A stretch of DNA of 38,213 bases from assembly GCF_006265175.1 (NCBI RefSeq), contig NZ_VDCQ01000082.1, forward strand, positions 1 through 38,213, written 5' to 3'. Each line of letters starts with the position of its first letter. Position 1 is the first letter of the stretch. The notes under the pieces are model-generated. The model had not been told where the DNA came from, did no database searches, and saw only the letters and a list, made by a program, of their open reading frames with translations. The DNA comes from Paenibacillus hemerocallicola (GTDB taxonomy: Bacteria; Bacillota; Bacilli; Paenibacillales; NBRC-103111). The position numbers were made by a program, and so were the translations under genes. Below are positions 16,179 through 37,572 of this stretch, piece after piece.

Positions 16179-16415
16179 ACTCGTCCGGGCGGTTTGGTTC
16201 TGGTTATATGTGCATACGGCTGAAAAATGGTGCTATGGCGGAACGCCGCGGGAACGTTTCGCCTGTCCGGAAGCAGGCGAATCCGTCTCCCGCGAACGGG
16301 GGCGCTTCTTTTTCGCGGAGTGCATTTCCCCTTTTTCTCCGTGCATTTGCGAACCTCTTTCTGGGTGAACGCATATGTTGCAGATGACTACTCCTGGAAA
16401 AGAAAGGTGACCCGG

Positions 16416-19400: not shown

Positions 19401-22400
19401 CTGGCGGCGGAAAGCGTCCGCGGCGAGCATTTGAAGGCGGAATCGATCCGGGGCTACCATCTCCAGGCAGGCGCGGTCAAAGGCTACCATTTGGAGCAAG
19501 GCGCGCTCCGCACCGAGCACTACGGAATAGGCAGCGTAACCGGCGACAAGCTCGCGGAGGCTTCCGTCGGTACGGAACAGCTGGCTGACGGCTCCGTTAC
19601 GGGGGAGAAGCTGACCCGTGCATCGGTGGGCAAGGAGCATCTGGCCAACGAGTCGATCGAATCCCGCCATTTGACCGATCAGTCCATCGCCGAGGAGCAC
19701 ATTCAAGAAGGCGCGATCGCGACCGGGATGCTGCAGGATGAAGCGGTGACGGGAGAGAAGCTTGCGGCCGGCTCGGTAACGGCGGAGAAGATGGCCGCGG
19801 AATCGGTGACCGGAGATAAGCTCGCGGAGGGCAGTATAACGGCAGATAAGATCGCTGACGGGTCCGTCACGGCCGACAAGCTTGCAGAAGGTTCGTTAAC
19901 CGGAACCGTAATCGCTGCCGAGAGTATCGAAAGCCGTCATATCCGACGCGAAACGATCCAAGGCTACCACATTGGAAGAAACGCGATTCAAGGCGAGCAT
20001 ATCGGCAATGTGGAATGGATCGCAGGGCGATTGGCCGACGGCAGTCTATCCGGCACGAAGCTGCAAGGCCGGTCGATCTCGTCGAAGCAGCTTGCTGCGG
20101 ACAGCATAACGGCGGACCATCTTGCGGGCTCCAGCGTTACGGGCGAGAAGCTGGCCGACGGAGCGGTGACGGCCGACAAGCTGGCGGACGGCTGCACGAC
20201 GGAGGAGAAGCTGGCGAACGGGTCGGTGACAGCCGACAAGCTGGCGGATGGAGCCGTGACAACCCGCCATTTGGCCGAGGGCAGTGTCGGGTCGGCACAA
20301 TTGGCAGAAGCTTCGATCGGCTTCGAGCATTTGCGTCCCGATGCGGTTTCTGCGGCTTCGCTTCAAGACGGTGCGGTGACCGAAGAGAAGCTGGCGACCG
20401 GGGCGGTCGGCGAGGATAAAATCGCCCCATCGTCGATCGGCGGCGATAAAATCAAAACATCCTCCGTCGGGGAAGCTCATTTGACGGAAGGAGCCGTGAG
20501 CGCCGGTAAAATCGGATTAGAGGCCGTAAGGGCCGAACATTTGTCCGGGGAATCGGTCCGCTCCGATCATGTGGCACCTTCCGCCATCTCCGAACGGCAT
20601 TTGCAAGATCAGTCCGTCACGTCCGCCAAGCTGCAAAACGGATCGGTAACGGAAAGCAAGCTGGCCGACCATTCGGTTACGGACGTGAAGCTTGCGGCGG
20701 AAAGCGTCGGAACCGAGCACGTAAAGGCCGAGTCGCTTCGCGGCTATCATCTGCACGCCGGTTCGATCAAAGGCTATCATCTGGAACAAGGCATCCTCCG
20801 GTCCGAGCATTACAGCTCCGGCAGCGTAACCGGGGAAAAGCTCGCGGAAGCGTCCATCGGTACGGACCATTTGAGAGATAGAGCCGTTACGGGGGAAAAG
20901 CTGGCGACCTCGTCGGTAGACAGTGAACATCTGACGGACGCCTCCGTCGAATCCCGCCATTTGTCCGATCAATCCGTTGCGGAACAGCACATCCAAGAGG
21001 GCGCCGTCTCGTCGGGAATGCTTCAGAGTGAAGCGGTAACGGAAGAGAAGCTCGCAGCAGGCGCGGTTACGGCCGAGAAGCTGGCGGCAGGCAGCATCAC
21101 GACGGAGAAGCTGGCAGTCGGGTCCGTCAGCGCCGAGAAGCTGGAGTCGGGTTCCGTCACAGCGGACGCGATTGCTTCGGACAGCGTGGAGGGCCGCCAT
21201 ATTCGTCCGGAAACGATCCAGGGCTATCATATCGGAACAGGAACGATCGGCTCCGAGCATCTCGATGGCGGGGAATGGATTGCCGAGCGACTGGCCGACG
21301 GCAGCGTTGCCGGACATAAGCTGCAGGACGGATCGGTTACGTCGGCGCAGCTCGCGCCGGACAGCGTCACGGCTTATCAGCTTGCTTCCGGCAGCGTCCT
21401 GAACGAAACCATTGCCGCAGAATCGGTGACCGCGGATAAGCTTGCCTTCGGCAGCGTGACCTCAGAGAAGCTGGCGAACGAGTCGGTGAATTCCGGCAAG
21501 CTGGCGAACGATGCCGTAACCGCCGGGAAGCTGGCCGACGGAGCCGTAACGGGAGCGGCCATCGCAGCGGAGAGCATCGAGAGCGCGCATATTGGCATGG
21601 AAGCGATCCAAGGCTACCATATCGGAAGAGGCGCGATCGGCGAAGAGCATCTGAACGGCGTGGAATGGATTGCCGACCGATTGGCGGAGGGAAGCGTCGC
21701 CGGATATAAATTGCAGGACGGAACCGTTACGTCGCAGCAGCTCGCGGCCGAGAGCGTCACGGCAGAGAAGCTGGCGAACGAGTCGGTGAGTTCCGGCAAG
21801 CTGGCGAACAATGCCGTAACCGCCGAGAAGCTGGCCGACGGAGCCGTAACGGGAGCCGCCGTCGCAGCCGAGAGCATCGAGAGCGCGCATATCGGCGCGG
21901 AGGCGATCCAAGGCTACCATATCGGAAAAGGCGCGATCGTAGAAGAGCATCTGGGCAATGTGGAGTGGATTGCCGACCGACTGGTAGACGGTAGCATCGC
22001 CGGGAACAAGTTGCAGGACGGAACGGTTACGTCACAGCAGCTCGCCGCCGACAGTGTGACGACGGAGCAATTGACGTCCGACAGCGTAACGAGCGAGAAG
22101 CTGGCGGACGATGCCGTAACCGCCGAGAAACTGGCAGACGGAGCCGTAACGGGAGCCGCCATCGCAGCCGTGAGCATCGAGAGCGCGCATATCGGCGCGG
22201 AAGCGATCCAAGGCTACCATATCGGAAAAAGCACGATCGGCGAAGAGCATCTGAGCGGCGTGGAATGGATTGCTGACCGATTAGCAGACGGTAGCATCGC
22301 CGGGAACAAGCTGCAGGCCGGAACGGTTACGTCGCAGCAACTCGCAGCCGACAGCGTCACGACGGAGCAATTGAGGCCCGACAGCGTAACGAGCGAAAAA

Positions 22401-25088: not shown

Positions 25089-26006
25089 ATGTTGAAGTCA
25101 CGCACGGGCAAAAGAAGGAAACCGTTACGGAGAACGGTCCGCAAAAGCGCCCACCGGAAAACCTCGGCTTCCGCACCTGTCGTCTCGTCGAAGTCCCGTT
25201 CCGCGTCTCCATCCGCCGCTCCGCCGAAAGCGTCGACGTCTCCTGACGCGGTGCCGCCGAGAGCGTCTCAGTCGCCGACACCCGTCGTATCCGTCGTGAT
25301 CCCGGTCGTCAACGAGCGCAAGACGATTGCCCGCGTCATCCGGCAAGCGTTCGCCGTTCACCGGGACACGGAGGTGATCGTCGTGGCGAACGGTTCGACG
25401 GACGGCACGGCGCAGGTGGCGCAGTCGCTCGGCGCGAAGGTGCTGCATTTCCCCGAGCCGCTCGGGCATGACGTCGGACGCAGCATCGGGGCGAGGGAAG
25501 CGAAGGGGAGAATCGTGCTGTTTACGGACGGCGATATCGTCATCCCGGCCAGAGAGATGATGCCGCTCGTAAAAGCGGTGGAGAACGGGGTCGATATCGC
25601 GCTGAACAGCTATTTGGGACCGACCGACAAGATGAACGTTCACGGCGTCGTGCTAGCCAAGCACGCGTTGAATATTGCCCTGTCCCGCCCGGAGCTGAAG
25701 GGGGCGTCGATGACGACGATTCCCCATGCGGTCAGCCGGAAGGCGCTGGAGGCGATCGGCTGGGAGCATTTGGCGATCCCGCCGAAGGCGCAGGCGATCG
25801 GGATATGCCGGGGACTGGATGTCCGCGCCGTTCACTATATCGAGGTCGGACGGACGAACCCGAAGCGGAGAAGGCGTCAAGGCAACGATCCGCTCGAAGG
25901 GCTGATCGTCGGCGACCATCTGGAGGCGCTCGACTGGTATATCCGGGCGACGAACGAAAGGGGAAATAAGCCCGACTTGACGCGGGCGAGGGAAATCGTG
26001 AGGTGA
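25089..26006 (+). CDS. GT2 glycosyltransferase with basic N-terminal tail (copy 1)
   Basis: A 305-residue protein. Residues 1-24 are strongly basic (KRRKPLRRTVRKSAHRK), 25-63 a Ser/Pro/Ala linker, and from about 66 a GT-A domain: VVSVVIPVVNERKTI, VIVVANGSTDGTAQVA, PLGHDVGRSIGAREAKG and the metal-binding DGD at 147-149. The C-terminal part has VSRKALEAIGWEHLAIPPKA and LIVGDHLEAL, shared with the next gene. It should transfer a sugar from an NDP-sugar. ATG 25089 sits in GGAGGTGAAGG. It is the first gene of a long plus-strand locus, and its stop overlaps the next ribosome site, so translation is probably coupled. Confidence 0.85.
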   Translation: MLKSRTGKRRKPLRRTVRKSAHRKTSASAPVVSSKSRSASPSAAPPKASTSPDAVPPRASQSPTPVVSVVIPVVNERKTIARVIRQAFAVHRDTEVIVVANGSTDGTAQVAQSLGAKVLHFPEPLGHDVGRSIGAREAKGRIVLFTDGDIVIPAREMMPLVKAVENGVDIALNSYLGPTDKMNVHGVVLAKHALNIALSRPELKGASMTTIPHAVSRKALEAIGWEHLAIPPKAQAIGICRGLDVRAVHYIEVGRTNPKRRRRQGNDPLEGLIVGDHLEALDWYIRATNERGNKPDLTRAREIVR

Positions 26007-26010
26007 ATTC

Positions 26011-27141
26011 ATGGGTGGCTTACGCAAACGCCGCAACCGCATGACGGGACGCGTGCGCAAACAAAGACTGCGTCGTTATCGCAGGAGGGGAACGCTGAGA
26101 GGCAGACGCGCATTAGGCCGCAAAGCGGCCGCTCCCGCAGCCGTCACAACTAACTCGGATCCGGGAATGGCGCTGCGGGCGTTCGAGGCGGGTCGCGAAG
26201 CCTCGATCCATTCGAGCGATACGGAAAATGCCGGGCCGTTGAAATGGATGAACCGGTGCTGGAACGACTGGGCGGACGCGAACCGCGTATCGGGCTTAGG
26301 GTGGAGCGCCTATCACGATATCGCCGGCAAATTTGCCGCTGGCTTCCAAAGCGCGGCGGGCGTCAGACTGGGCAATGTGGTTCTCGTGCCGACGCGGAAG
26401 ACGATCGGCGCGGTCGTCACGGCGATGAATGAGGAGAAGGCGATCCCCGGGGTGATGGAGCAGCTGGGACGGCTGCCGCTTGACGAAACGATCGTCGTCG
26501 TAAACGGCTCGGCGGACCAAACGTTCTGGAGCGCGAGAAAGTTGAGCGGGGGCATCGTCGTGCACTATGTACGGCCGCTCGGCCACGACGTGGGGCGGGC
26601 CATCGGGGCGAAGCTGGCCCGAGCGGATATCGTGCTGTTCTTGGACGGCGATTTTCCGATATTCGCCGAGCATCTCGTACCGTTTATTCATGCGGTGGAG
26701 AAAGGGACGGATGTGGCGTTGAACGACATCACGCCGTATATCGACGTCTTTGCAAGCCGCGATCCCGTAACGATCGTGAAGGAGATGCTGAACCGTGCCC
26801 TCGGCCGGGAGGAACTGGCCGCCAACTCGTTGACGGCGGTGCCGCACGCCTTATCGAGGAAGGCGCTCGATACGATCGGCTGCGCCAATCTGATGGTGCC
26901 GCCCAAGGCGCAGGCGCTCGCGATCCGGAACGGGCTGCGGGTCGATACCGCGATGAGCGTCGACGTCATTTCGAAAAACCGGGTAAGGGACAAAAATTCC
27001 GGGCGCGACAATCCGGTATCCCATCTGATCGTCGGCGATCATCTGGAGGCGCTCGAGCTGCTGATGCGAACGGACGGAGCAAGATTGAGGGACGCCGACA
27101 ATATCCGCAACCGCAACGTGCTCGGGAGGGCGACGTCATGA
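26011..27141 (+). CDS. GT2 glycosyltransferase with basic N-terminal tail (copy 2)
   Basis: A 376-residue paralogue of the preceding protein. Residues 1-38 are almost pure Arg/Lys/Gly (RKQRLRRYRRRGTLRGRR). An inserted ~75-residue segment (LKWMNRCWNDWADANRV, SGLGWSAYHDIAGKFAAGF) separates the tail from the GT-A domain. That domain has AVVTAMNEEKAIPGV, ETIVVVNGSADQT, PLGHDVGRAIGAK and DGD at 212-214. The end shares VSHLIVGDHLEALELL with copy 1. ATG 26011 follows AGGTGA, which contains the upstream stop. The tandem copies differ mainly in the N-terminal insert, suggesting different acceptors (inference). Confidence 0.83.
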   Translation: MGGLRKRRNRMTGRVRKQRLRRYRRRGTLRGRRALGRKAAAPAAVTTNSDPGMALRAFEAGREASIHSSDTENAGPLKWMNRCWNDWADANRVSGLGWSAYHDIAGKFAAGFQSAAGVRLGNVVLVPTRKTIGAVVTAMNEEKAIPGVMEQLGRLPLDETIVVVNGSADQTFWSARKLSGGIVVHYVRPLGHDVGRAIGAKLARADIVLFLDGDFPIFAEHLVPFIHAVEKGTDVALNDITPYIDVFASRDPVTIVKEMLNRALGREELAANSLTAVPHALSRKALDTIGCANLMVPPKAQALAIRNGLRVDTAMSVDVISKNRVRDKNSGRDNPVSHLIVGDHLEALELLMRTDGARLRDADNIRNRNVLGRATS

Positions 27142-27875
27142 GCGTAACGAGCATCGTCATCCCGACCTACAACGAGCTCATCCTGCTGCGGGAATGCTTG
27201 CAAGCGATCGAGACTTATACGGACAGTCCGTACGAAATCGTAGTCGTCGATAACGGCTCGACGGACGGGACGGTGGAATATTGCCTCAAGAAGCCGGTCA
27301 CGCTCGTCTCGCTCCCCCATAATCGGGGATTCCCGGAAGCGTGCAATCTCGGGCTGAAGGCGGCAAGCGGCAGCGAGCTGCTGCTGCTGAACAACGACGT
27401 AGTCGTGTCGAAGGGCTGGCTGACCAATATGCTGAGCTGTTTGCATAGCGGAGAGCTCGTAGGCATCGTGGGCCCGCGAACGAACTACGCGAGCGGGAAG
27501 CAGCAGATGGAGCTGTCCTATGGCAGCTTGGACGAATTTCACCGTCAGACGGAAACGTTAAACAGTCCGGACCCCCAGAAGTGGGCGGAAGTGAACCGGC
27601 TCGTCGGGCTGTGCTTCCTGTTCAAGCGGGAGTTGATGGAGCGGATCGGGCTGCTGGACGAACGGTTTTCGCCGGGGCATTACGAGGACGACGATTATTG
27701 CTACAGAGCCCGGCTGGCCGGGTACCGGCTGCTCATCGCCGGAGACACGGTCGTTCACCACCACGGCAGCGCAAGCTTCCGCAAGCAGGGGCAGGATCGG
27801 ATGGACCGGCTCGTAGAGACGAATTTCCATAAATTTGTCGACAAATGGGGGATCGATCCGAAGGAGTTCATATGA
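27138..27875 (+). CDS. GT2 glycosyltransferase, rhamnosyltransferase-like
   Basis: A 245-residue GT-A glycosyltransferase without a basic tail. It has TSIVIPTYNELILLRECL, VVVDNGSTDGTVEY, the NND metal site (Asp87 in LLLLNNDVVV), a conserved GPRTNYASG loop and the catalytic-base region GHYEDDDYCYRARLAGYR. This layout is common in rhamnosyl- and related transferases of WcaE/GT2 type. The start ATG overlaps the previous stop (ATGA at 27138-27141). It is a close relative of the GT2 at 35797, which adds a docking motif and a C-terminal module. Next come dTDP-sugar genes, so a deoxysugar donor is plausible. Confidence 0.87.
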   Translation: MSVTSIVIPTYNELILLRECLQAIETYTDSPYEIVVVDNGSTDGTVEYCLKKPVTLVSLPHNRGFPEACNLGLKAASGSELLLLNNDVVVSKGWLTNMLSCLHSGELVGIVGPRTNYASGKQQMELSYGSLDEFHRQTETLNSPDPQKWAEVNRLVGLCFLFKRELMERIGLLDERFSPGHYEDDDYCYRARLAGYRLLIAGDTVVHHHGSASFRKQGQDRMDRLVETNFHKFVDKWGIDPKEFI

Positions 27876-27905
27876 CGAGGCTAACGCGGAAAGGATGGAG
27901 GACTT

Positions 27906-28634
27906 GTGAAGGGCGTTATATTGGCGGGAGGCACGGGCACGCGACTGGCCCCTTTGACGAAGGTGGTCAACAAGCATTTGCTGCCGGCGGGAAAGTACCC
28001 GATGATCCATTACGCGGTCCGCAAGCTGGCGCAGGCCGGCATTGAAGACATTTTGATCGTGCTCGGCAAGCAGTCCGCCGGCCTGTTCCTCGATTACTTG
28101 GGCAGCGGCAAAGCGTGGGGCGTCCGGCTGACGTACCGGATTCAGGAGGAAGCGGGAGGGATCGCGCAAGGACTTTCCTTGGCCGAAGGGTTTGTCGCCC
28201 CCGGCGAGAAAATGGTCGTCCTGCTCGGCGACAACCTGTTCGAGGACGATCTGAAGCCTTTCGCGGACCGGTTCAACCGCCAGGAGCGTGGCGCGATGGT
28301 CATGCTCAAGGAGGTTGAAGATTTGCACCGGTACGGCGTGCCGGTATTTTTGCAGGACAGCATTATTTTTATCGAGGAGAAGCCTTCCACTCCGAAATCC
28401 GGTTACTGCGTGACCGGCGTATACATGTACGATTCGGCCGTGTTCGACGTGATCCGCAAAATCCGGCCGTCGCAGCGCGGGGAGATGGAAATTACCGACG
28501 TGAACAACGTGTATGCGGTGAACGGCGAGCTGCGCTACGGTCTGCTGACCGGCTGGTGGACGGACGCGGGTACGTTCGATTCGCTTCGGGAAGCCGGGGA
28601 GAAGCTTGCCTCCACGGACGGAGACGAACGATGA
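27906..28634 (+). CDS. rfbA: Glucose-1-phosphate thymidylyltransferase (RmlA/SpsI type)
   Basis: A 242-residue sugar-nucleotide transferase making dTDP-glucose from dTTP and glucose-1-phosphate. The N-terminal signature GVILAGGTGTRLAPLTK with NKHLLPAG is intact, followed by the metal-binding GDN, then FIEEKPSTPKSGYCVTGVYM and the WWTDAGTFDSL closure. The length matches the short SpsI-like enzymes of spore polysaccharide loci, shorter than standard RmlA (~290). GTG 27906 has GGAGGA just upstream. Its stop overlaps the next start (ATGA, 28631-28634). dTDP versus another base cannot be settled by motif alone. Confidence 0.87.
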   Translation: MKGVILAGGTGTRLAPLTKVVNKHLLPAGKYPMIHYAVRKLAQAGIEDILIVLGKQSAGLFLDYLGSGKAWGVRLTYRIQEEAGGIAQGLSLAEGFVAPGEKMVVLLGDNLFEDDLKPFADRFNRQERGAMVMLKEVEDLHRYGVPVFLQDSIIFIEEKPSTPKSGYCVTGVYMYDSAVFDVIRKIRPSQRGEMEITDVNNVYAVNGELRYGLLTGWWTDAGTFDSLREAGEKLASTDGDER

Positions 28635-29857
28635 GGCAGTACGATTACGTCGTCATCGGCGCCGGCATTATCGGGCTGACGATCGCGTTGGAGCTGAAGA
28701 GTCGCTATCCCGACGCCTCGATTGCCGTTGCGGAGAAGGAGTCGGACGTCGCGTATCACGCCAGCGGCCGGAACAGCGGCGTTCTGCATGCCGGCTTCTA
28801 CTATACGGCGAACAGTCTGAAGGCGAAGTTCGCCCGCGAGGGCAATCGGGCGATGCAGCAATATTGCCGCAGCCGGGGGCTTGCCGTCAATCCGTGCGGC
28901 AAGCTCGTCGTGGCGGGCGACGAAGAGGAGCTGAGAGGGCTCGAGGAATTGAAGCGGCGGGGCGATGCGAATGGAGTCGAGCTGCACTGGATGAGCGAAG
29001 AGGACATCCGGAAGGTCGATCCGAATGCCCGCACGTTCCGCAAAGCGCTTTTCTCACCAACCACGGTTACCGTCGATCCGCTTCAGGTGTGCATGTCGAT
29101 GAAGCGGGACGCGCTCGGGCTGGGCATCGACCTCCATTTCGATGCAAAGTACGAGGGACGCTGGGAGGAAGGCATTATGACCGGCAAAGGCCCGATCCGC
29201 GCAGCGTACGTCGTCAACGCCGCCGGGCTGTATGCCGACCGGATAGCCCGCGATTACGGATTCGGCGAGCGGTATACGATTATTCCTTTCAAAGGGATGT
29301 ACGTGAAATATGTGAAAAACAAAACCGATATCCGCACGAATATTTATCCGGTGCCGAATCTCGCCAATCCGTTTCTCGGCGTTCATTATACGAAGACTGT
29401 GGACGGTAGCATCAAGATCGGCCCGACGGCGATACCCGCTTTTTGGCGCGAGCAATATCGCGGCTTTTCCCGTTTCAAGCTTGGGGAGTTTCTGCATATT
29501 TTGTATTACGAGGCGAAGCTGTTCGTCACCGATTCGTTCCGGTTTCGCCGGCTCGCCTTCCAGGAGATGAAAAAATATTTCAAGCCCCATTTCGTCCGGC
29601 TGTCGATGAAGCTGGCGGGCAACGTCGATCCGGACGGGTTCGGACCGTTTATGCGGCCGGGCATCCGCGCCCAGCTGCTGGACAAAAAAACGCTGGAGCT
29701 CGTGCAGGACTTCATCGTGGAAGGGGACGATCGATCGATGCATGTGCTCAATGCCGTATCTCCGGCTTTTACGTGCTCCATCCCGTTCGCCGCATACGTC
29801 GTCGATACGATCGCCGCCCGCCGGTCCGCACAAGGCTCTGAAATGGAAGGAGTTTGA
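28631..29857 (+). CDS. LhgO-like FAD-dependent oxidoreductase
   Basis: A 408-residue flavoprotein of the DAO family, closest in layout to L-2-hydroxyglutarate oxidase (LhgO/L2HGDH). The dinucleotide fold is at the N-terminus (DYVVIGAGIIGLTIALEL), with GRNSGVLHAGFYY (His and FAD contacts), VVNAAGLYADRIARDYGF and YTIIPFKGMYVKY. The last 60 residues diverge from the family I know. It lies between rfbA and rfbC with ATGA overlap, so it is an operon member and probably oxidises a sugar or a hydroxy acid attached to one. The hydroxyglutarate assignment should not be taken literally. Confidence 0.75.
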   Translation: MRQYDYVVIGAGIIGLTIALELKSRYPDASIAVAEKESDVAYHASGRNSGVLHAGFYYTANSLKAKFAREGNRAMQQYCRSRGLAVNPCGKLVVAGDEEELRGLEELKRRGDANGVELHWMSEEDIRKVDPNARTFRKALFSPTTVTVDPLQVCMSMKRDALGLGIDLHFDAKYEGRWEEGIMTGKGPIRAAYVVNAAGLYADRIARDYGFGERYTIIPFKGMYVKYVKNKTDIRTNIYPVPNLANPFLGVHYTKTVDGSIKIGPTAIPAFWREQYRGFSRFKLGEFLHILYYEAKLFVTDSFRFRRLAFQEMKKYFKPHFVRLSMKLAGNVDPDGFGPFMRPGIRAQLLDKKTLELVQDFIVEGDDRSMHVLNAVSPAFTCSIPFAAYVVDTIAARRSAQGSEMEGV

Positions 29858-29866
29858 CACTTTATT

Positions 29867-30430
29867 ATGAAGCGAATCGATACGTTGCTGCCGGGAGTGT
29901 TCCTGCTGGAGCCGGTCGTTCATGGCGACCACCGCGGTTATTTTATGGAAAGCTATACGCGAAGCAAGCTCGAGGGGCTCGGCCTGACCTACGATTTCAT
30001 CCAAGACAATCAGTCGTTGTCGGCGCAGGCGGGCGTAATCCGCGGGCTGCATTACCAGCTGTCCGGGAAAGCGCAGACGAAGCTCGTGCGCGTCCTGACG
30101 GGCGCCGTCTACGATGTCGCAGTCGATATCCGCAAAGGCTCGCCGACGTTCGGCAAATGGATCGGCGTCGTTCTGAGCGAGGACAACAAGCGGCAAATCG
30201 TCGTGCCGAAAGGGTTCGCCCACGGTATTTGCACGCTCGTGCCGAATACGCAGCTGCTGTACAAGGTGGATGAGTATTATTCGCCCGAGCACGACCGGGG
30301 TATTTTGTGGAACGATCCGGAGCTCGGCATCGACTGGCCGGCGTCGGCCCCGATTTTGTCGGCCAAGGATCAGGGCCAGCCGCGGCTGAAGGACGCGGAG
30401 ATCGATTTTGCCTATAGGGAGGGACAATGA
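29867..30430 (+). CDS. rfbC: dTDP-4-dehydrorhamnose 3,5-epimerase
   Basis: A 187-residue cupin-fold epimerase that inverts C3 and C5 of dTDP-4-keto-6-deoxyglucose. It has GVFLLEPVVHGDHRGYFMES, DNQSLSAQAGVIRGLHYQ with the catalytic His62, AVYDVAVDIRKGSPTFGKW, VVPKGFAHGICTL and WNDPELGIDWP. Length and order are canonical. ATG 29867 has AAGGAG 14 nt upstream, longer than ideal. Its 3' end overlaps the next start (ATGA at 30427). In B. subtilis the equivalent is SpsL in the spore polysaccharide operon. Confidence 0.93.
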   Translation: MKRIDTLLPGVFLLEPVVHGDHRGYFMESYTRSKLEGLGLTYDFIQDNQSLSAQAGVIRGLHYQLSGKAQTKLVRVLTGAVYDVAVDIRKGSPTFGKWIGVVLSEDNKRQIVVPKGFAHGICTLVPNTQLLYKVDEYYSPEHDRGILWNDPELGIDWPASAPILSAKDQGQPRLKDAEIDFAYREGQ

Positions 30431-31473
30431 TGCGCACCGTACTAGTTACTGGGGCCGGAGGCTACATCGGGTCGGTTCTGGTGCCGAAGCTGCTCGCCAA
30501 AGGCTTCAAGGTCAAGGCGCTCGACCGGTATTTCTTCGGAACCGACAAGCTCGAGCCTCACCCGAATCTCGTGACGATACACGAAGACAGCCGCCGAATC
30601 CGGGAGGAGCATTTCGCCGAGGTGGAGGCCGTCATCGACCTCGTGGCGTTGTCCAACGATCCGAGCGGCGAGCTGTTCCGCGAAGCGACGTACCAGATCA
30701 ACCATATTTCGCGGGCGAGAACGGCGGACATGGCCAAGAAGCTCGGCGTGAAAACGTACATTTTACCGTCCTCCTGCAGCATTTACGGGTTCCAGTCTCC
30801 GGATGTCATCGTCGACGAGCAGTCTGCATCGAACCCGCTGTCGACTTACGCCAAGGCGAACGAGAAAGCGGAGGAGAGCGTTTTGCCTTTGGCGGACGAC
30901 CGGTTTACGGTCGCGGTCATGAGGCAGGCGACCGTGTACGGCTTCTCGCCGCGGATGCGGTTCGATCTGGCGATCAACGGAATGACGCTCGGAGGCTGGA
31001 AAAACGGGGTCATCCCGCTCATGAAGGACGGATCGCAGTGGCGGCCGTTCGTTCACGTGCAGGATACGACCGACGTCATGTGCCTGCTGCTGGATGCCGA
31101 CCCGGCTGACGTGAACGGACAAATTTTCAACGTCGGCTCGAACGACAACAATTACCAGCTGGGCCCGCTTGGCGAAACGATCGCACAGACGCTGCCGAAG
31201 CCGGTTAGCATCGAATGGTACGGCGAACCGGATCACCGCTCGTACCGGGTCAGCTTCGACAAGATCGGGCGAGCGTTGGGCTGGAAGGCGCGATGGACCG
31301 CGGCGGAAGGCGCGATGGAAATCTACAACGCCCTGGAGGCCGGACGCGTGCCTGAATTCGAGCAGACGATCACGTTGAACTGGTATCAGGAGCTGACAAA
31401 GTGGCACCGGATTATCCGGCAGACGGAAATGTATGGCGGCATGATCGATATCCGGGGAGCCGACGGCCGATGA
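30427..31473 (+). CDS. NAD-dependent epimerase/dehydratase-like SDR, atypical active site
   Basis: A 348-residue extended short-chain dehydrogenase. The nucleotide motif is VTGAGGYIGS (residues 7-16) and the Ser region is LPSSCSIYG. In the expected YxxxK motif the sequence is YAKAN (141-145): Tyr is kept but the Lys position is Asn145, with Lys at +2 and +6. The DE pair of RmlB-type dehydratases (TDEVYG) is missing, so it is not a standard dTDP-glucose dehydratase. The C-terminal NWYQELTKWHRI tail is unusual. ATGA overlap joins it to rfbC and rfbD. The likely substrate is an NDP-sugar. Confidence 0.78.
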   Translation: MMRTVLVTGAGGYIGSVLVPKLLAKGFKVKALDRYFFGTDKLEPHPNLVTIHEDSRRIREEHFAEVEAVIDLVALSNDPSGELFREATYQINHISRARTADMAKKLGVKTYILPSSCSIYGFQSPDVIVDEQSASNPLSTYAKANEKAEESVLPLADDRFTVAVMRQATVYGFSPRMRFDLAINGMTLGGWKNGVIPLMKDGSQWRPFVHVQDTTDVMCLLLDADPADVNGQIFNVGSNDNNYQLGPLGETIAQTLPKPVSIEWYGEPDHRSYRVSFDKIGRALGWKARWTAAEGAMEIYNALEAGRVPEFEQTITLNWYQELTKWHRIIRQTEMYGGMIDIRGADGR

Positions 31474-32354
31474 AGCGGATCGTCCTGCTCGGAGCGAACG
31501 GACAATTGGGCACGGACATCCGGCGCGTCTTCCGAGACGCTCCGGTGGACCTTGTTCCGCTGTACCGCGGCGATATCGACGTAGAACAGACCGAGAGAAT
31601 CGGCGGGGTGTTGCGGGGGATCGGCCCGTATGACGCGCTCATCAACTGCACCTCTTACCATAAAACGGACGAATGCGAGGATTACGCCGCCAAGGCGTTC
31701 GCGGTCAATACGCTGGCACCGAGAGAGATGGCCGAAGCTTGCGGCGAGGCCAAAGCGGTGCTGGTCCATATTACGACCGACTACGTGTTCGACGGCCGAA
31801 AACGGACGCCATATCTCGAGGAGGACGCGACATCTCCCCTGAATGCATACGGCGTCTCGAAGGCGGCGGGGGAACATTTCGTAGCGGCTCACCATGACAA
31901 GTTTTTCATTCTGCGGGTATCGTCGTTGTTCGGTACGGCGGGGGCAAGCGGGAAAGGGGGCAATTTCGTGGAAACGATGCTGCGCGTCGCCGCGGGCGGA
32001 GCTCCCCTTCGCGTCGTGAACGACCAGATCATGTCGCCGACCCATACGCTCGACATCGCCGAATCGATCAAGATGCTGCTGATGGAGGGCGTGGACGATT
32101 ACGGCATTTACCATTGCTCCGGAGAGGGCGAGTGCAGCTGGCACGACTTCGCTGCGGAAATATTCCGGCAGCGCGGGGTTGTGGCCGACTTGCGTCCGGT
32201 GACATGCAGCGAGTTTCCGACGAAGGCGAGAAGGCCGGCGTACAGCGTGCTCGATAACGGCAAGCTGAATCGCCTCCGTCCGATGCCGCATTGGAGCGAT
32301 GCGCTCCGGGACTATTTCCGTCTCAAGGACGAGGGCGGACAACAAAGGGGGTGA
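31470..32354 (+). CDS. rfbD: dTDP-4-dehydrorhamnose reductase
   Basis: A 294-residue SDR of the RmlD family, which reduces dTDP-4-keto-L-rhamnose to dTDP-L-rhamnose. The N-terminus is IVLLGANGQLGTD, the DINC-like strand is ALINCTSYHKTDECE, ITTDYVFDG is the family hallmark, and the active site is YGVSK (Tyr127, Lys131), then RVSSLFG. The start ATG overlaps the previous stop (31470-31473). Its stop sits inside the ribosome site of the following CgeB gene. RmlA, C and D are all in this locus but no RmlB is present in the window. Confidence 0.9.
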   Translation: MKRIVLLGANGQLGTDIRRVFRDAPVDLVPLYRGDIDVEQTERIGGVLRGIGPYDALINCTSYHKTDECEDYAAKAFAVNTLAPREMAEACGEAKAVLVHITTDYVFDGRKRTPYLEEDATSPLNAYGVSKAAGEHFVAAHHDKFFILRVSSLFGTAGASGKGGNFVETMLRVAAGGAPLRVVNDQIMSPTHTLDIAESIKMLLMEGVDDYGIYHCSGEGECSWHDFAAEIFRQRGVVADLRPVTCSEFPTKARRPAYSVLDNGKLNRLRPMPHWSDALRDYFRLKDEGGQQRG

Positions 32355-32358
32355 ACGC

Positions 32359-33495
32359 ATGCGCCGGTTGAACGCCAAGACGAGGGAGACCCCTCTCCCG
32401 GCCCCTCCGCGCGACGATGGGATAGTCGGCTGGGGGGACGGTTACAGGGAGGGCAAAAACGAAGGATACCATTACGGCTTGTGCGAATCGATTTATCGTC
32501 AGGCGGCTTCCGCGACTGCCGGGCTGCGCGATGTGAAGGTGCTGTACGTAAAGGCGGACGGCGCTCCTTACGCCGCACTCGATCAGGGAATCGAAGAGGC
32601 GCTGCGGTCGTCGGTCCGGGAGGTCGTCGTCGCCGCGCCGGAGCAGGATGTCGTGCAGCTGTGCGAAGCGGCGAGACCGGATCTGGTGCTCGTCCTCGAT
32701 GCGATCGGACAGTCTTTTCCAACGGAGCAGATCGACCGGATGCGGTCGAAAGGCTTCCGTACGGCGGTATGGCTTCCCGACGATCCTTACCATTCCGACA
32801 AAACCGTCGCGATCGCTCCCCATTACGATTTCGTGTTTACGCTCGAATCGAGCTGCGTCGAGCTATATCGCGAATTGGGATGTCCGCACGTGCATCACCT
32901 GCCTTTCGCCGTCAATCCGGGCTATATCCGGCATGTCCGGGTGGATGAGTCGTACCGGAACGATATTTGCTTCGTGGGCAGCGCCTTCTGGAACCGGGTC
33001 CATTTTTTCGACGAGATCGCCGACTATTTGGCCCGGCAAAAGTTCAAAATCATCGGCTGGTGGTGGGACCGGATGCGCAGCTACGAGCTGTTGGCCGATA
33101 AAATCCACGGCGTATGGCTTTCTCCGGAGGAAACGGCCAAACATTACAGCGGCGCGAAAATCGTCATCAACCTGCACCGGTCGACGGAGGACCCGTCGCA
33201 CAACAGCAATAGCCGCAACATTCCGGCGACTTCGGTCAACCCCCGTCTGTTCGAAATATCTTCATGCGCCACGCTCCAGTTGGTAGACAACCGGACGGAG
33301 CTGCCGGGCTTGTATACGCCGGGGTACGACATCGCGACTTTTTCCACGCCCGGCGAGCTGGTCGACAAAATCGAATACTATTTATCCCATGAGAACGAAA
33401 GGCGGGAAATGGCGAGAAGAGGGTTGCATCGGACAGTGAGCGAGCATACGTACCGGAAACGGATCGAGCGGCTGCTGGGAGCGGTGTTCGGATAA
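32359..33495 (+). CDS. CgeB-family glycosyltransferase (copy 1), GX3 motif
   Basis: A 378-residue protein of the CgeB (spore maturation) family: an N-terminal DUF3880-like domain with RPDLVLVLDAIGQSFP and WLPDDPYHSD, then a Glyco_trans_1_2-type domain (GAKIVINLHRS, TSVNPRLFEISSC, ATFSTPGELVDKIEYYL). In B. subtilis, CgeB is a mother-cell product affecting the outer spore surface. A short basic start is followed by five glycines exactly four apart (Gly24, 28, 32, 36, 40), including GWGDGYREGKNEGYHYG. ATG 32359 has AAAGGGGGTGA 5 nt upstream. It is a paralogue of the next gene. Confidence 0.85.
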   Translation: MRRLNAKTRETPLPAPPRDDGIVGWGDGYREGKNEGYHYGLCESIYRQAASATAGLRDVKVLYVKADGAPYAALDQGIEEALRSSVREVVVAAPEQDVVQLCEAARPDLVLVLDAIGQSFPTEQIDRMRSKGFRTAVWLPDDPYHSDKTVAIAPHYDFVFTLESSCVELYRELGCPHVHHLPFAVNPGYIRHVRVDESYRNDICFVGSAFWNRVHFFDEIADYLARQKFKIIGWWWDRMRSYELLADKIHGVWLSPEETAKHYSGAKIVINLHRSTEDPSHNSNSRNIPATSVNPRLFEISSCATLQLVDNRTELPGLYTPGYDIATFSTPGELVDKIEYYLSHENERREMARRGLHRTVSEHTYRKRIERLLGAVFG

Positions 33496-33529
33496 TTACC
33501 CAAGCTTCGGAGCGTATTCCGATTACTTC

Positions 33530-33544
33530 CGGGGGAGCCCCCCG
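33530..33544 (+). other. Intercistronic hairpin between the CgeB genes
   Basis: A perfect hairpin with CGGGGG and CCCCCG arms around an AGC loop, 30 nt before the second CgeB start. No T-run follows. It may stabilise or attenuate transcripts. Confidence 0.4.
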
Positions 33545-33574
33545 AATAATACCGTGAAGAAAGGAGGGGAGCGA

Positions 33575-34666
33575 ATGCCCACAAAAAAAGCCGTTTGGCC
33601 CCTTGGCTGGGAGGACGGCTACAGGGCGGGCCGGCAGGAAGGGCGACGGCTCGGCACATGCGAGGCGATCTCGCGTCAGCTTCGTTTCGAGGCGCCGGTA
33701 CTGGAGCTGCGGGTGCTCTATGTCCGGACGGGGCTATGGTCATACGATCCGCTCGACCAGGGCATTATCGACGCCTTGCGCCAATTGGTCCGCGAAGTTC
33801 ATGTAGCGGTTCCGACCGACGATACGGTCGCGCTTGCCGCGAGTGTCCGTCCCGATCTCGTGCTGTCCCTGAATTCCGTCGAGTGCTTGAGCGTCGCAAA
33901 GGTGGACGCGATTCGCGGCATGGGCATCCGCACCGCGGTCTGGTTTACCGACGACCCTTACTTTATCGATGCGACCAAGCATATTGCCCCTCATTACGAC
34001 TACGTATTTACGCTGGAGGAAGCGTGCGTGCCGGTGTACCGGGAGCTGGGCTGCGCCAATGTCGCCCATGTGCCGTTCGGAGCGAATACGGCCTATTACT
34101 TGCCGAAGCGCACTGAAGCCCGATTCGAGGCGGACATCTGCTTCATCGGGAGCGCCTTTGTCAACCGGGCCGCTTTTTTCGACCGGATCGCTTCCTATTT
34201 GCAACGGAAAAAGGTGTTTATCGCGGGCTACTGGTGGGAACGGATGGCGAACTTCCCTATGCTCGCCGGTCAAATCCGGAACGGCCAATGGGTATCGCCG
34301 GAAGAAACGGCGTCGTTCTACAACCGGGCCAAAATCGTCATCAACCTGCATCGCTCCATCGATGATGAGACGAATCAAAACGTCGGCGGCATTCCCGCGT
34401 TGTCGGTCAATCCGCGAAGCTTCGAGATCGGCGCCTGCGGGGCCTTTCAATTGACCGACGTCCGCCATAGCCTGGGAGCCGCTTTTGCGCCGGGGGAGGA
34501 GATTGCGACTTACGCGTCGCCGGAGGAGCTAATCGAGAAAGCGGACTATTATTTAAACCATGAGGAAGAACGGCAAACGATCGCGCTGCGGGGCTATGCT
34601 AGAACGATGCGCGAGCATACGTATCCGAGACGCGTCCGGCAGCTGTTGGTCACCGTTTTCGGCTGA
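33575..34666 (+). CDS. CgeB-family glycosyltransferase (copy 2), GX3 motif
   Basis: A 363-residue paralogue of the previous protein with the same domain order: VRPDLVLSLNSVECLS, WFTDDPYFIDATKH, HYDYVFTLEEACVPVYRELG, ADICFIGSAFVNRAAFFD, AKIVINLHRSIDDETNQ and ATYASPEELIEKADYYL. The N-terminus again has five glycines four apart (Gly11, 15, 19, 23, 27) within GWEDGYRAGRQEGRRLG, followed by CEAI (CESI in copy 1). ATG 33575 follows AAAGGAGGGGA by 5 nt. The two copies are arranged in tandem with a 79-bp gap containing a hairpin. Both may add different sugars (inference). Confidence 0.85.
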   Translation: MPTKKAVWPLGWEDGYRAGRQEGRRLGTCEAISRQLRFEAPVLELRVLYVRTGLWSYDPLDQGIIDALRQLVREVHVAVPTDDTVALAASVRPDLVLSLNSVECLSVAKVDAIRGMGIRTAVWFTDDPYFIDATKHIAPHYDYVFTLEEACVPVYRELGCANVAHVPFGANTAYYLPKRTEARFEADICFIGSAFVNRAAFFDRIASYLQRKKVFIAGYWWERMANFPMLAGQIRNGQWVSPEETASFYNRAKIVINLHRSIDDETNQNVGGIPALSVNPRSFEIGACGAFQLTDVRHSLGAAFAPGEEIATYASPEELIEKADYYLNHEEERQTIALRGYARTMREHTYPRRVRQLLVTVFG

Positions 34667-34684
34667 ACGGACATTTGGTCGGAT

Positions 34685-34710
34685 GTCCCCGGCACGGATG
34701 GACCGGGGAC
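34685..34710 (+). other. Intercistronic hairpin before the GT-D gene
   Basis: GTCCCCGG (34685-34692) pairs perfectly with CCGGGGAC (34703-34710) over a 10-nt loop, 19 nt after the second CgeB stop. There is no T-run, so read-through into the next gene is likely. Confidence 0.45.
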
Positions 34711-34756
34711 GAATACGATAAGGGAAAACCAGCACAATTCAAGGTGGTGACGTCAC

Positions 34757-35776
34757 TTGTCTCGTCTCGTTTTGCGCAAGAAGAAACTGCCGTTTAAGCG
34801 AAAAGGGCGGCTTCGACGAAAGGCGTTGCGGAATTCAAGAGGCAGAACGCGCAGTTTGACCGCCGGCGTCAAGTCCGGCGACTCCTTTAACGAAGGCTAT
34901 AATACGGGATATAACAAAGGCTACAACGGCGGCCACGAGGAAGGCTACCGGCAAGGCAAGTACGACGGCGAGGGCCGGAACGAGTGGCGGGACGGCGTCG
35001 ACGGACTGATCGATTCGTTCATTCCGGAGTATGAAATATTGCCGGATTTCACGGCGGAACAAATCGTCGCGGCGGGGGTCGAGCATCTGCGTCCCCATTT
35101 CCGGCATATGCTCACGCCGGATGAGCTGGCAGGCCGCATCCTTCATGCGCTCGACACGCGTTCCCCGTTCTCCCTCGTACGGATCGGCGACGGAGAGCTG
35201 CTGACGCTTGCGCAGGGGAGCGTGCTCAGCGTGGAACAGGTCAAGGAGCAGGGGCCGTTTCTCGGCTATGCCGGCGTAGACGTGCCCGACTTCGACGCGA
35301 GGGATCAGGTGAAGGAGGCGATCAAGCAAGCGACGGTCGTCGGCATTCCGAAGCTGCGGGTGCGCAACTTCCAACCGCTTGCCCTCGCGGTATTCAACGC
35401 GCACGGCATCGGTTACGGATCTGTGACGCTGACCGATTCGTTGATCAATTACTATTTGTACCATGCCGGACATATTTCCCGGATCGTGGGCGGGCGTCGC
35501 GTGCTCATCGCTGGGATGCTTGCGGAGCCGCTTGCCGACTATATGCGGCAAAACGGGGTGAACGTCGTGGCGACGGTATCGCCGGTCGAAGGGGTGAAGG
35601 ACGTTCCTCGCGTCATGGAGGAAATCGCCGCCCGCGATTTCGATATCGCGCTCGTCGCGGCCGGAGTCGCCGCCGTCCTGCTCTCGCAGCGGATCGCCAC
35701 CGAGCTCGGCAAGGTCGCCATCGATTTCGGCCATCTGGCCAATTCGATGATCAAGGGCGAAGCGCCCTTCAAATAG
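34757..35776 (+). CDS. GT-D-fold glycosyltransferase-like protein with basic tail and GX3 motif
   Basis: A 339-residue protein in three parts: residues 1-32 very basic (RKKKLPFKRKGRLRRKALR), 44-73 a run of seven glycines four apart (Gly47 to 71; EGYNTGYNKGYNGGHEEGY), and from about 130 a GT-D-like (former DUF1792) domain with LVRIGDGELLTLAQG (Asp145, Glu147) and LIAGMLAEPLADYM. GT-D enzymes transfer glucose or related sugars onto glycoproteins, as in serine-rich repeat adhesins. TTG 34757 is the start: AAGGTGGTGA ends 6 nt before it and the basic tail follows. It is part of the glycan locus. Confidence 0.75.
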   Translation: MSRLVLRKKKLPFKRKGRLRRKALRNSRGRTRSLTAGVKSGDSFNEGYNTGYNKGYNGGHEEGYRQGKYDGEGRNEWRDGVDGLIDSFIPEYEILPDFTAEQIVAAGVEHLRPHFRHMLTPDELAGRILHALDTRSPFSLVRIGDGELLTLAQGSVLSVEQVKEQGPFLGYAGVDVPDFDARDQVKEAIKQATVVGIPKLRVRNFQPLALAVFNAHGIGYGSVTLTDSLINYYLYHAGHISRIVGGRRVLIAGMLAEPLADYMRQNGVNVVATVSPVEGVKDVPRVMEEIAARDFDIALVAAGVAAVLLSQRIATELGKVAIDFGHLANSMIKGEAPFK

Positions 35777-35796
35777 ACGGGAAAGGGGGAGAAATC

Positions 35797-37161
35797 GTGG
35801 GAACGAGAAAGCGCAAGGGAGCCCGGGCACGGGTTTCCTTGATGAACGCCACGTACAATAACGGCTACAATACAGGCTACGATACCGGGCATTCGCACGG
35901 CTACGGACTGGGCTTCCAGAAAGGAAGCGATTCGTACGCCGCCGGCTTCGACGGTACGAGCATCGTCATCCCGTCGTACAACCAGCAAGCTTATTTGGCC
36001 GATTGCATCGAGAGCATCGGGCAATATACGCCGGAGCCGCATGAAATTATCGTCGTCGACAACGGTTCTACGGACGGTACTGCCGACTATTTGCGGTCAC
36101 TGCGCAAAGCGACCGTCCGGTACAAAATCAGCGAACGCAACCTCGGCTTTGCCGGCGGCGTCAATCAGGGGCTGATGATGGCGCGCGGCTCGACGCTCCT
36201 GTTTCTGAACAACGATACGATCGTTACGGAAGGCTGGCTGTCCAATCAGTTGGCCTGCCTCGGCGGCAGCGACCGTCACGGGCTGGTCGGACCGGTTACG
36301 AACTATATCAGCGGCGATCAGTTGATTTCTACCACGTACGGCTCTACGGAAGAAATGCACCGATTCGCGAAATCGTTCAACCGACCCGATCCCGGCAAGT
36401 GGGCCGTAACCGGGAGGCTGACCGGTTTTTGCGTGCTCATGCGCAAAGAGGTGTTCCGGCGGATCGGTTTTTTGGACGAAGGATTCGAGATCGGCAACTG
36501 CGAGGATGACGATTTCGGCTTTCGCAACCGGCTGCTCGGTCTCGATCTGGTCATCGCGAAGGATACGTTTATCCACCATGTCGGCAGCACGACGATCAAG
36601 ACGCTCACACCGGCCGAGTTCGAGGAAATGTACGCGCGCAATCTCGCCTTTTACTCCGACAAATGGGGCGAGACGCATGCGCTGCTGCAGGAAGTGTCCG
36701 GCCATTGGAACGGAAGTCCGCTCGCCGTAAACGATTTTTATCCGACGCACGTCACCGTGAAAGGAACCGGTCCTACCGTATTTTGGGTGGAGCATGGCAT
36801 ACGGCGTCCATTGGAGAGCTCCGACGGAATTCAGGCAACCCGGCTGTCGCAGATCGAATTGAAAAACTGGCCTTCCGGCGAACCGATTTCCGTCGCGGAA
36901 TGGAACGCCAAGCAAGCCGTAATGGCTGCCGCGGGAAGCCCAGGGGGGCCGCTTGCCGAAGGCCGGATTGCGCAAACTCCGGATGGGCGGCTGTACCAGC
37001 ACCGCGGCGGAAAGCTTCACCGCCTTGTAACGGCTTGGGTCACGGAGGTGTGGAACTTGAACCGGCATCCGGTCCAGACATTGACGGAATCCGAGGCGGC
37101 CGCTTATCCGATCGGACTGCCGGTCATCGCGCCGCCGATCATCAAGGCCGACAATATTTAG
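35797..37161 (+). CDS. GT2 glycosyltransferase with GX3 motif and C-terminal repeat module
   Basis: A 454-residue protein. The start is basic (GTRKRKGARAR), followed by six glycines four apart (Gly23 to 43; NNGYNTGYDTGHSHGYG). A GT-A domain runs from about 53 (TSIVIPSYNQQAYLADC, VVDNGSTDGTADYL, NND with Asp140, NCEDDDFGFRNRLLG). The last ~140 residues hold two related ~50-residue units with F/Y-W/Q, G-x-x-x-R/H-x-L and VAEW/LTESEAAAYP endings, perhaps a carbohydrate- or wall-binding module. GTG 35797 has AAAGGGGGAG about 6 nt upstream. The catalytic half is a paralogue of the GT2 at 27138. Confidence 0.82.
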   Translation: MGTRKRKGARARVSLMNATYNNGYNTGYDTGHSHGYGLGFQKGSDSYAAGFDGTSIVIPSYNQQAYLADCIESIGQYTPEPHEIIVVDNGSTDGTADYLRSLRKATVRYKISERNLGFAGGVNQGLMMARGSTLLFLNNDTIVTEGWLSNQLACLGGSDRHGLVGPVTNYISGDQLISTTYGSTEEMHRFAKSFNRPDPGKWAVTGRLTGFCVLMRKEVFRRIGFLDEGFEIGNCEDDDFGFRNRLLGLDLVIAKDTFIHHVGSTTIKTLTPAEFEEMYARNLAFYSDKWGETHALLQEVSGHWNGSPLAVNDFYPTHVTVKGTGPTVFWVEHGIRRPLESSDGIQATRLSQIELKNWPSGEPISVAEWNAKQAVMAAAGSPGGPLAEGRIAQTPDGRLYQHRGGKLHRLVTAWVTEVWNLNRHPVQTLTESEAAAYPIGLPVIAPPIIKADNI

Positions 37162-37302
37162 AAAAGGCGAAGGCAGCTTTTCTTTGCTTGCGCATGGATG
37201 AGGCTGCCGAGAAGTATGCAAGAGAGGAAGCAGTTACAACTTGATTCGAGCGAATGCTTCCATAGCAAGCTTTGCATGCGCATGGCTCTTAGGAGGGATA
37301 GT

Positions 37303-37572
37303 ATGAGCGTCATCAGGAAGAAGAAGTCCGCCGGCAAATCGGGAAGAAGACGCGTGCGTCGCGCCGTCAAGCGTCCCGGAGGAAAGAGACGGCTGGCGAA
37401 GCGGGGAAAGCGCCGGCTGCTGAGACGCCGCCGCGCGGTCGGCGGAGCAGCGCCGCAGGCCGGGGCCCAAATGACATATGACCAAGGCTACAACATGGGA
37501 TATAACAAAGGCTTCGACGAAGGCTTCGCTCAAGCGTTCGAAGAAGGCTATCAGCACGCTTACGCGTCTTAA
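37303..37572 (+). CDS. Small tag-only protein: Arg-rich tail plus GX3 helix
   Basis: An 89-residue protein with no enzyme domain. Residues 1-44 are almost half Arg/Lys (KSGRRRVRRAVKRPGGKRR, RRLLRRRR), 45-56 a Gly/Ala linker, and 58-89 a GX3 run: Gly62, 66, 70, 74, Ala78, Gly82, Ala86 (YDQGYNMGYNKGFDEGF). Both parts match the N-terminal tags of the enzymes upstream. ATG 37303 has AGGAGGGAT 4-7 nt upstream; longer frames upstream lack a ribosome site. It closes the locus, 141 nt after the last GT2. It may be a hub or spore-surface anchor (inference). No known family was recognised. Confidence 0.75.
   Translation: MSVIRKKKSAGKSGRRRVRRAVKRPGGKRRLAKRGKRRLLRRRRAVGGAAPQAGAQMTYDQGYNMGYNKGFDEGFAQAFEEGYQHAYAS

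Follow-up and report, generated by a model that had tools for sequence, protein, structure and literature searches.

We found that five adjacent genes in a 38,213-nucleotide contig of Paenibacillus hemerocallicola (NZ_VDCQ01000082.1) encode proteins that share an array of glycines exactly four residues apart. We refer to the whole contig as the window and to the array as GX3. The five proteins are two CgeB-type glycosyltransferases (GTs; CgeB1 and CgeB2), a GT-D enzyme, a GT2 enzyme and a small polybasic protein (Table 1). Each has five to seven glycines in register (partly alanine in the small protein), and the next residue is mostly tyrosine or phenylalanine. Our preferred interpretation, to which we give a probability of about 50%, is that the array is a docking helix and that the enzymes bearing it form a single soluble glycosylation machine, with the small protein as adaptor and the spore surface as the most likely site. 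We use the name CgeB for proteins with DUF3880 and Glyco_trans_1_2 domains, following the preliminary description of this DNA and what we take to be general usage. Both Pfam domains exceed their cut-offs in both proteins, and no CgeB model matched.

The preliminary description had reported strict GX3 runs in five adjacent proteins with unrelated catalytic folds. Translation bore out the runs at the positions reported. The word strict holds for the exact spacing of four in all five proteins. It does not hold for the residue itself, as alanine replaces glycine in the small protein, nor for all relatives, some of whose GT-Ds lose the motif. The catalytic folds are indeed unrelated: GT-B for the CgeBs, GT-D (PF22882) and GT2 (PF00535), and no catalytic domain was found in the small protein.

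We compared each run to 20,000 composition-preserving shuffles per protein. The pure-glycine run was matched by 2 shuffles for CgeB1, 6 for CgeB2, 0 for GT-D, 13 for GT2 and 468 for the small protein. When alanine was allowed, the corresponding numbers were 339, 147, 48, 288 and 77. Taken alone, the small protein is the weakest case in these shuffles; five of its seven positions are glycine, and its longest pure-glycine stretch is four. Nine other proteins of the window had at most three glycines in register, and six further open reading frames (ORFs) of 32-296 residues, which we did not judge to be genes, attain four. The motif was not found in the Rml-type, LhgO-like and three upstream GT2-family proteins of the window. 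Thus, it marks a subset of the GTs plus the small protein, not the whole operon.

A profile built from the five motifs, searched against the 9.65-Mb genome, recovered the five genes (E≤2.6e-16), and the next match had E=1.47. The five are self-matches of their own profile, and therefore the informative part is the empty rest of the genome. Scanning the genome with a motif pattern gave 62 matches versus 28 in the control and was too loose for use.

As the preliminary description had supposed, the arrays were predicted to be helical, in both proteins with AlphaFold2 models (CgeB1 and the small protein). The CgeB1 model has a mean predicted local distance difference test score (pLDDT) of 94.9, and a single helix contains all five glycines, with mean pLDDT of 91 for residues 21-30, 95 for 31-40 and 96 for 41-50. 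Structure comparison indicated that the body of CgeB1 has a GT-B fold like that of BshA. In this model the GX3 helix is an addition outside the GT-B fold, because the aligned ranges start only at residue 46-59.

Conservation of the array and co-occurrence with the small gene

Of the family's 104 genomes, 68 had a match to the five-motif profile, representing 15 of 22 genera. We fetched 73 regions around listed profile matches; that is, these regions were chosen by motif. A GX3-bearing CgeB was present in 65 of the 73, the small gene in 67 and both in 63; four regions (L161, L163-L165) had neither. Among the CgeB homologues of these regions and the window, 122/129 had at least four in-register glycines. 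In the alignment of CgeBs (A6; 81 rows, made up of 79 of 134 CgeBs with at least four glycines and the two window proteins), the invariance of the glycines is partly a product of that selection.

A second sample was picked by CgeB catalytic peptides and ranked by whole-CgeB similarity, taking the best 80 of 379 and giving 79 loci. At least four in-register glycines were found in 136/142 or 136/144 CgeBs, depending on the length filter. This was true only of spacing four: 136/144 CgeBs had such a run at spacing 4 versus 0/144 at spacings 3, 5 and 7. In the same loci, at least three glycines were present in 40/41 GT2s and 27/45 GT-Ds (some of the GT-Ds lie outside the operon; both counts take any in-register N-terminal run, regardless of the residue after glycine), and the small gene was present in 75/79. 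Other enzymes of these loci had few or no runs at spacing four: rmlA 0/73, rmlD 0/42, gt25089 0/55, gt27138 0/53, sdr 0/14, rmlC 0/16, lhgO 1/13 and gt26011 5/53. The GX3 observation is confirmed, and a chance origin of the motif is rejected by the shuffles, the genome profile search and the spacing control. Nor did the motif appear at equal frequency in other proteins, an outcome that the preliminary description had named as refuting its proposal. The single exceptions are the lhgO and gt26011 homologues just given and, outside the cluster, one 116-residue, Cys-rich ORF of the genome.

The genomes that encode CgeB are nearly always those that encode the small protein. Among the 104 family genomes, 85 had the small protein (E≤1e-3) and 84 had CgeB (E≤1e-60); 83 had both, 18 had neither and three disagreed (Fisher p 5e-17, uncorrected for kinship). 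Of the three, G042 had only CgeB, G090 had only the small protein, and the small-protein match in G016 was a chance-like one of 27 residues. The 18 genomes without either, a few of them incomplete, are spread over genera g2-g6, g8, g16 and g18. Because they fall in several genera, this distribution suggests that the two were lost jointly more than once. That the motif behaves as a module, as had been proposed, is supported by its restriction to the operon, its conservation within the order and this strong co-occurrence. At one locus (L306), there were three CgeBs and as many separate genes for small GX3 proteins. At another, a 410-residue protein (L113, 6349-7578, minus strand) carries a GX3 array but matched no catalytic family in Pfam, and the GT-D of that locus is split in two ORFs.

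Within the order, a second family had the small gene in 32 of 36 genomes, among the matches listed. Of 15 loci fetched from this family, three (L250, L251, L254) had the full set of three GTs, RmlA, GT-D, GT2, the small gene and two CgeBs, and L252 had it up to the contig end. L245-L249 and L253 had the small gene and two CgeBs. In the stretches fetched for L255-L259, the small gene was accompanied by some of RmlA, the three GTs, a WIAG-type repeat protein and more distant CgeBs. Beyond the order, two motif profiles found nothing comparable to the cluster among 398 sampled genomes of the class. Of the 48 genomes matching the first profile, 15 were outside the order; their matches were all weak (best E 3.5e-6) and were mostly to ORFs of 246-433 residues, with ORFs of 114-117 residues in two genomes. 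Of the two regions opened, L260 had a 114-residue ORF that by eye is like a nuclease tail, and L264 had nothing past the filter. Judging from ORF length, the remaining matches are probably FliH-like. The second profile, with at most 20 candidates scored per genome and the weaker CgeBs of genus g24 missed, gave two 38-residue ORFs outside the order.

The array of the GT-D enzyme largely follows the operon. Using a search with the catalytic domain only, we found at least three in-register glycines in 38/51 GT-Ds inside the operon versus 1/39 outside, with four operon flags set by hand (L252 to operon; L154, L310 and L328 to outside). The operon GT-Ds form one group of 53 rows that includes two stray non-operon members. 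The longest arrays (4-7) are in the clade of the window protein (21 rows), and the array was lost in some lineages, e.g., L304, L313, L314, L320, L323 and L337. Several independent origins of the GT-D motif were not shown, since the operon GT-Ds are close to one clade (an independent-pairs test had too few pairs). The GT-D protein had no sequence relative in the PDB at E≤0.01. We also considered exchange of DNA between gtd and the small gene and rejected it. There was one 44-nucleotide stretch at 82% identity, yet no clear within-genome excess: mean similarity of the array DNA was 0.685 within versus 0.645 between genomes (7 genomes).

Additional GTs have the array. A GT4-like enzyme encoded after the small gene carries an N-terminal GX3 array in L269 (twice), L285, L293, L297, L310 and L328, for a total of seven ORFs at six loci. 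Six of the seven were scanned. All six matched Glycos_transf_1-type models, four of them over the Pfam cut-off.

The small protein and its relation to known systems

The small protein appears to consist of little more than a basic tail and the helix. In 79 aligned members (the starts of some are guessed), the tail is a median of 43% Lys and Arg (minimum 28%) and a median of 0% Asp and Glu, and 82% of the residues that follow glycine in the C-terminal array are Phe or Tyr. All 15 small proteins from the second family have a basic stretch with a net charge of +21 to +25 in 40 residues, and in those read over their whole length this stretch is followed by a linker. The AlphaFold2 model of the window protein has one helix (residues 59-88), with mean pLDDT of 91-92 over residues 61-80. 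The tail has pLDDT of 56-65 and no secondary structure, and for these reasons we read it as disordered. Because the 79 aligned members and the 15 from the second family all combine a polybasic tail with a helix, the small protein looks like an adaptor rather than one more member of the set.

No Pfam or NCBIfam model matched the small protein of the window over its cut-off. At E≤0.01, the only models that matched the 79 members were Yae1_N, FliH and one glutamate dehydrogenase helix model. A search for a solved structure of the family gave a best match of E 0.11, to an unrelated protein. We found no report of GX3 helices in GTs, or of this small-protein family, in the open-access literature, which is weak evidence of absence.

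The closest parallel to the docking that we propose is with the eukaryotic deca-GX3 adaptors Yae1 and Lto1, which function in Fe-S targeting. There, glycine-every-four arrays join two different proteins with the character of small adaptors, and glycine exchanges in the array of Lto1 weaken binding to Yae1 (PMC4523923). Yae1_N (PF09811) aligns weakly to the motifs of the small protein and GT-D. It matched 46 of the 79 small proteins at E≤0.01 (best 4.1e-6; scores relative to the cut-off were not listed). True membership in Yae1 was rejected for the window protein, since its score of 23.5 bits, like that of GT-D (15.4 bits), is below the gathering cut-off of 27.5 bits. The arrays described here also differ in having 5-7 repeats rather than 10, a strong preference for an aromatic residue after glycine, fusion to GTs and a polybasic tail. 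By analogy, the small protein may work like Yae1-Lto1.

The GxxxG repeats of FliH and YscL are likewise long, soluble, bacterial repeats of glycine at every fourth residue, and FliH models match the motif weakly. However, these models reach about 12-23 bits where the cut-offs are 180-293 bits, and they match just the repeat. Membership in FliH was rejected on this basis (best 23.1 bits; NCBIfam equivalog cut-offs). FliH repeats favor Glu, Gln, Lys and Ala (PMC2674601), in contrast to the Tyr or Phe that follows glycine here.

A third comparison is with the glycosylation of the Bacillus subtilis spore crust. The crust there contains rhamnose, CgeB and CgeD are counted among the crust GTs, and for CgeA a role as target or hub of glycosylation is discussed (PMC10502511). 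The likeness is in CgeB and other GTs and in the Rml-like genes of the operon. In contrast, we found no relationship to CgeA as far as NCBIfam goes, where none of the 79 small proteins had a CgeA-type match (no check was made that this library includes a CgeA model), and nothing comparable to the cluster outside the order in the sampled genomes of the class.

The same genome has other glycine-every-four arrays. Long arrays of IEKG/EGRA type (Lys, Glu, Ile) are at the C-terminal ends of ORFs on contigs C83, C3, C109, C164 and others (L009-L021), in what look like Rpn/PD-(D/E)XK-type nucleases. They resemble the arrays described here in length and in the GX3 spacing, but differ in composition and have no aromatic position. 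They look like a second, unrelated use of the repeat. A 304-residue ORF that looks like FliH has a run of three glycines. The 116-residue ORF is rich in Gly and Cys and has six in-register glycines at spacing four in a G-Phe array of GFCA type (contig C57, ~107458-107519; L036, 1428-1775, minus strand). It may be a coat protein, and binding of the GX3 helices to it is conceivable. The five-motif profile does not pick up the nuclease-like arrays, the FliH-like ORF or the 116-residue ORF.

A proposed docking helix and its alternatives

An association with spores is supported in part. The sigma-K-like -10 box CATANNNTA was enriched at some operon heads: 16/29 rmlA-type heads (2.3 expected), 14/52 gt25089-type heads (3.7 expected) and 4/23 small-type heads (0.9 expected), with 8/407 at internal starts (19.4 expected); these numbers are rough, since the shuffles are simple and the species related. 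The association did not extend to CgeB-type heads, and the head of the window's operon had only a near match. At rmlA-type heads of many species (L265-L343), a box that by eye resembles GGTATTCGTCCAC, possibly a regulator site, precedes the sigma-K-like -10. No operon gene matched a flippase or ligase family in Pfam and NCBIfam scans, and so glycosylation in the cytoplasm of the mother cell would fit.

To our knowledge, how soluble spore-surface GTs are kept together and in order is an open question, and few soluble helices with glycine at every fourth residue have been studied. We propose the following as a well-motivated hypothesis, in line with the glycosylation complex that the preliminary description had suggested and that our results support in part. 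Based on the promoter boxes, the operon would be transcribed late, in the sporulating mother cell. The two GT-B enzymes of CgeB type, GT-D and GT2 each have an aromatic-glycine array N-terminal to the catalytic domain, predicted to be a helix in CgeB1, as it is in the small protein. These helices would pair by way of their glycine faces, both among themselves and with the lone helix of the small protein, in the manner of the deca-GX3 proteins Yae1 and Lto1. The Lys/Arg-rich tail of the small protein, together with the basic tails of some GTs, could then anchor the complex where there is a polyanionic surface, for instance on the spore coat or crust during its assembly. There, dTDP-sugars made by the Rml-type enzymes would be added sequentially to a surface protein, possibly the WIAG-tail protein encoded upstream.

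Several observations weigh against this docking model. We infer association between different GX3 helices from sequence and from models of single chains. Three GTs of the operon lack the tag. In 13 of 51 operon GT-Ds there are fewer than three in-register glycines even though the rest of the operon persists, indicating that the tag is dispensable in this subunit. Because the operon GT-Ds are close to one clade, the link between motif and operon in GT-D probably reflects largely one event and not many independent ones. Glycine counts are lower in the second family, where in the 15 loci GT-D has about three and one of the CgeBs often no more than three. Co-occurrence of CgeB and the small protein would also be expected if the small protein were a substrate or had another role. 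The Cys-rich 116-residue ORF has the aromatic spacing too, a genuine exception. Finally, CgeB-type heads had CATANNNTA in 2/44 cases (2.5 expected), and the operon head of the window has no perfect CATANNNTA, the nearest by eye being CATAAAATG.

It is possible, though we think it unlikely, that the small protein is itself the glycosylated crust protein or a hub, i.e., a functional counterpart of B. subtilis CgeA, and that the GX3 helices serve in recognition of this acceptor and not in a standing complex. The presence of the small gene and CgeB together in nearly all loci and genomes agrees with this, and the roles discussed for CgeA, CgeB and CgeD in B. subtilis provide a precedent. Against it are the lack of a CgeA-type match among the 79 members noted above, a tail that is largely Lys and Arg, and the helix on the enzymes, which acceptor recognition would not need. 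Somewhat less probable is that the helix serves each protein separately, in homo-oligomers or as a structural N-terminal helix, and that neighbors are similar by convergent helix chemistry, with no cross-binding. FliH, whose GX3 repeats are the nearest parallel among bacteria, is a dimer (PMC4523923), and the helix of CgeB is modelled with such high confidence that it may pack on its own domain. This would leave unexplained why the spacing and aromatic pattern are found in only these GTs, of at least three folds, in one operon, and why there is a separate protein consisting of only a tail and the helix.

The helix could also be a localization tag for a third party, a coat protein or the membrane, encoded elsewhere, such that the members never touch. 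The polybasic tails, the sporulation-type promoter boxes and the coat-like 116-residue ORF with its G-Phe array are all consistent with this. We consider it improbable, as the standalone helix protein of the same operon is an obvious partner and no third-party partner was shown. A functionless low-complexity repeat, such as a Gly/Tyr-rich linker or a product of codon slippage, has been largely refuted by the spacing control and has very little probability left. Repeats of 12 nucleotides can slip, and the repeat number in GT-D varies from 1 to 7 among relatives, but the spacing is four only and is kept in nearly all CgeBs while flanking residues vary, and the arrays of gtd and the small gene show no clear excess of DNA similarity within a genome over that between genomes.

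We extend the docking model, tentatively and with considerable doubt, to a helix-docking code, in which one GX3 helix is interchangeable among soluble GTs of at least three folds. An adaptor that is polybasic and otherwise disordered would template these GTs into an ordered array, and recruits such as the GT4-like enzymes would join by gaining the helix. If true, bacteria would have here a system for scaffolding enzymes that is of its own kind. Docking of this sort would also represent a portable bacterial scaffold for sugar-attaching enzymes, provide a functional name for an unnamed family of small proteins and make the spore-surface chemistry of Paenibacillus and Cohnella more accessible to study. 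With a tag shared by several folds and a free helix protein in more than 80 of 104 family genomes, the idea is approachable with small soluble proteins.

The operon and neighboring genes

All genes from 25089 to 37572 are on the same strand, with gaps of at most ~140 bases. The order is three GT2-family GTs, RmlA-like, LhgO-like, RmlC, epimerase/dehydratase, RmlD, two CgeBs, GT-D, GT2 and the small gene. The closest named relatives by CgeB, among the matches listed, are Paenibacillus mesophilus, P. oceani and P. ginsengarvi. No RNA element was found in the window at the gathering threshold.

Table 1. Positions of the GX3 arrays, their genes and neighboring genes in the window
Feature	Position	Strand	Basis
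CgeB-type GT 1, 378 residues (DUF3880 + Glyco_trans_1_2, GT-B fold)	32359..33495	+	PF12996 60.7 bits, PF13524 110.8 bits
Predicted GX3 helix of CgeB1, residues 20-50 (Gly 24, 28, 32, 36, 40; 5 Gly)	32416..32508	+	AlphaFold2
CgeB-type GT 2	33575..34666	+	PF12996 51.9 bits, PF13524 121.4 bits (scan began 33578)
GX3 run of CgeB2, Gly 11-27 (5 Gly)	33605..33655	+	translation
GT-D fold GT, basic N-tail	34757..35776	+	PF22882 261 bits (cut-off 27); NF040628 253 bits (cut-off 75)
GX3 run of GT-D, Gly 47-71 (7 Gly)	34895..34969	+	translation
GT2 (GT-A) GT	35797..37161	+	PF00535 103.3 bits (cut-off 23.3)
GX3 run of GT2, Gly 23-43 (6 Gly)	35863..35925	+	translation
Small polybasic GX3 protein, 89 residues, last cluster gene, proposed adaptor	37303..37572	+	
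GX3 run of small protein, residues 62-86 (7 Gly/Ala)	37486..37560	+	translation; predicted helix 59-88
GT2-family GT gt25089, polybasic N-tail, no GX3	25089..26006	+	probable operon head
GT2-family GT gt26011, polybasic N-tail, no GX3	26011..27141	+	
GT2-family GT gt27138, no GX3	27138..27875	+	
RmlA-like sugar-1-phosphate nucleotidylyltransferase, no GX3	27906..28634	+	
LhgO-like FAD oxidoreductase, no GX3	28631..29857	+	
RmlC, dTDP-4-dehydrorhamnose 3,5-epimerase family, no GX3	29867..30430	+	PF00908 235.5 bits
NAD-dependent epimerase/dehydratase, no GX3	30427..31473	+	PF01370 108.4 bits
RmlD-like reductase, no GX3	31470..32354	+	PF04321 283 bits
Repeat protein of 2271 residues, WIAG-tail domain	16227..23042	+	NF012201 97.4 bits (cut-off 33)

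The gene for the WIAG-tail repeat protein is upstream of the cluster and is also near the cluster in many relatives. This protein is a candidate surface structure and a candidate for a glycosylated surface filament. No paper on both WIAG-tail and Paenibacillus was among the top open-access literature matches.

Polybasic N-terminal tails, defined as a net charge of at least +10 in 30 residues, were found on operon GTs in 38/47 cases for gt26011, 24/48 for gt25089, 22/41 for gt2, 12/29 for gtd and 28/138 for CgeB, where the denominators are extensions long enough to score. Sugar-nucleotide enzymes had none (0/14 scorable). Because such tails also sit on the GTs of the operon, the basic tails and the GX3 helix may be two kinds of tag that act together.

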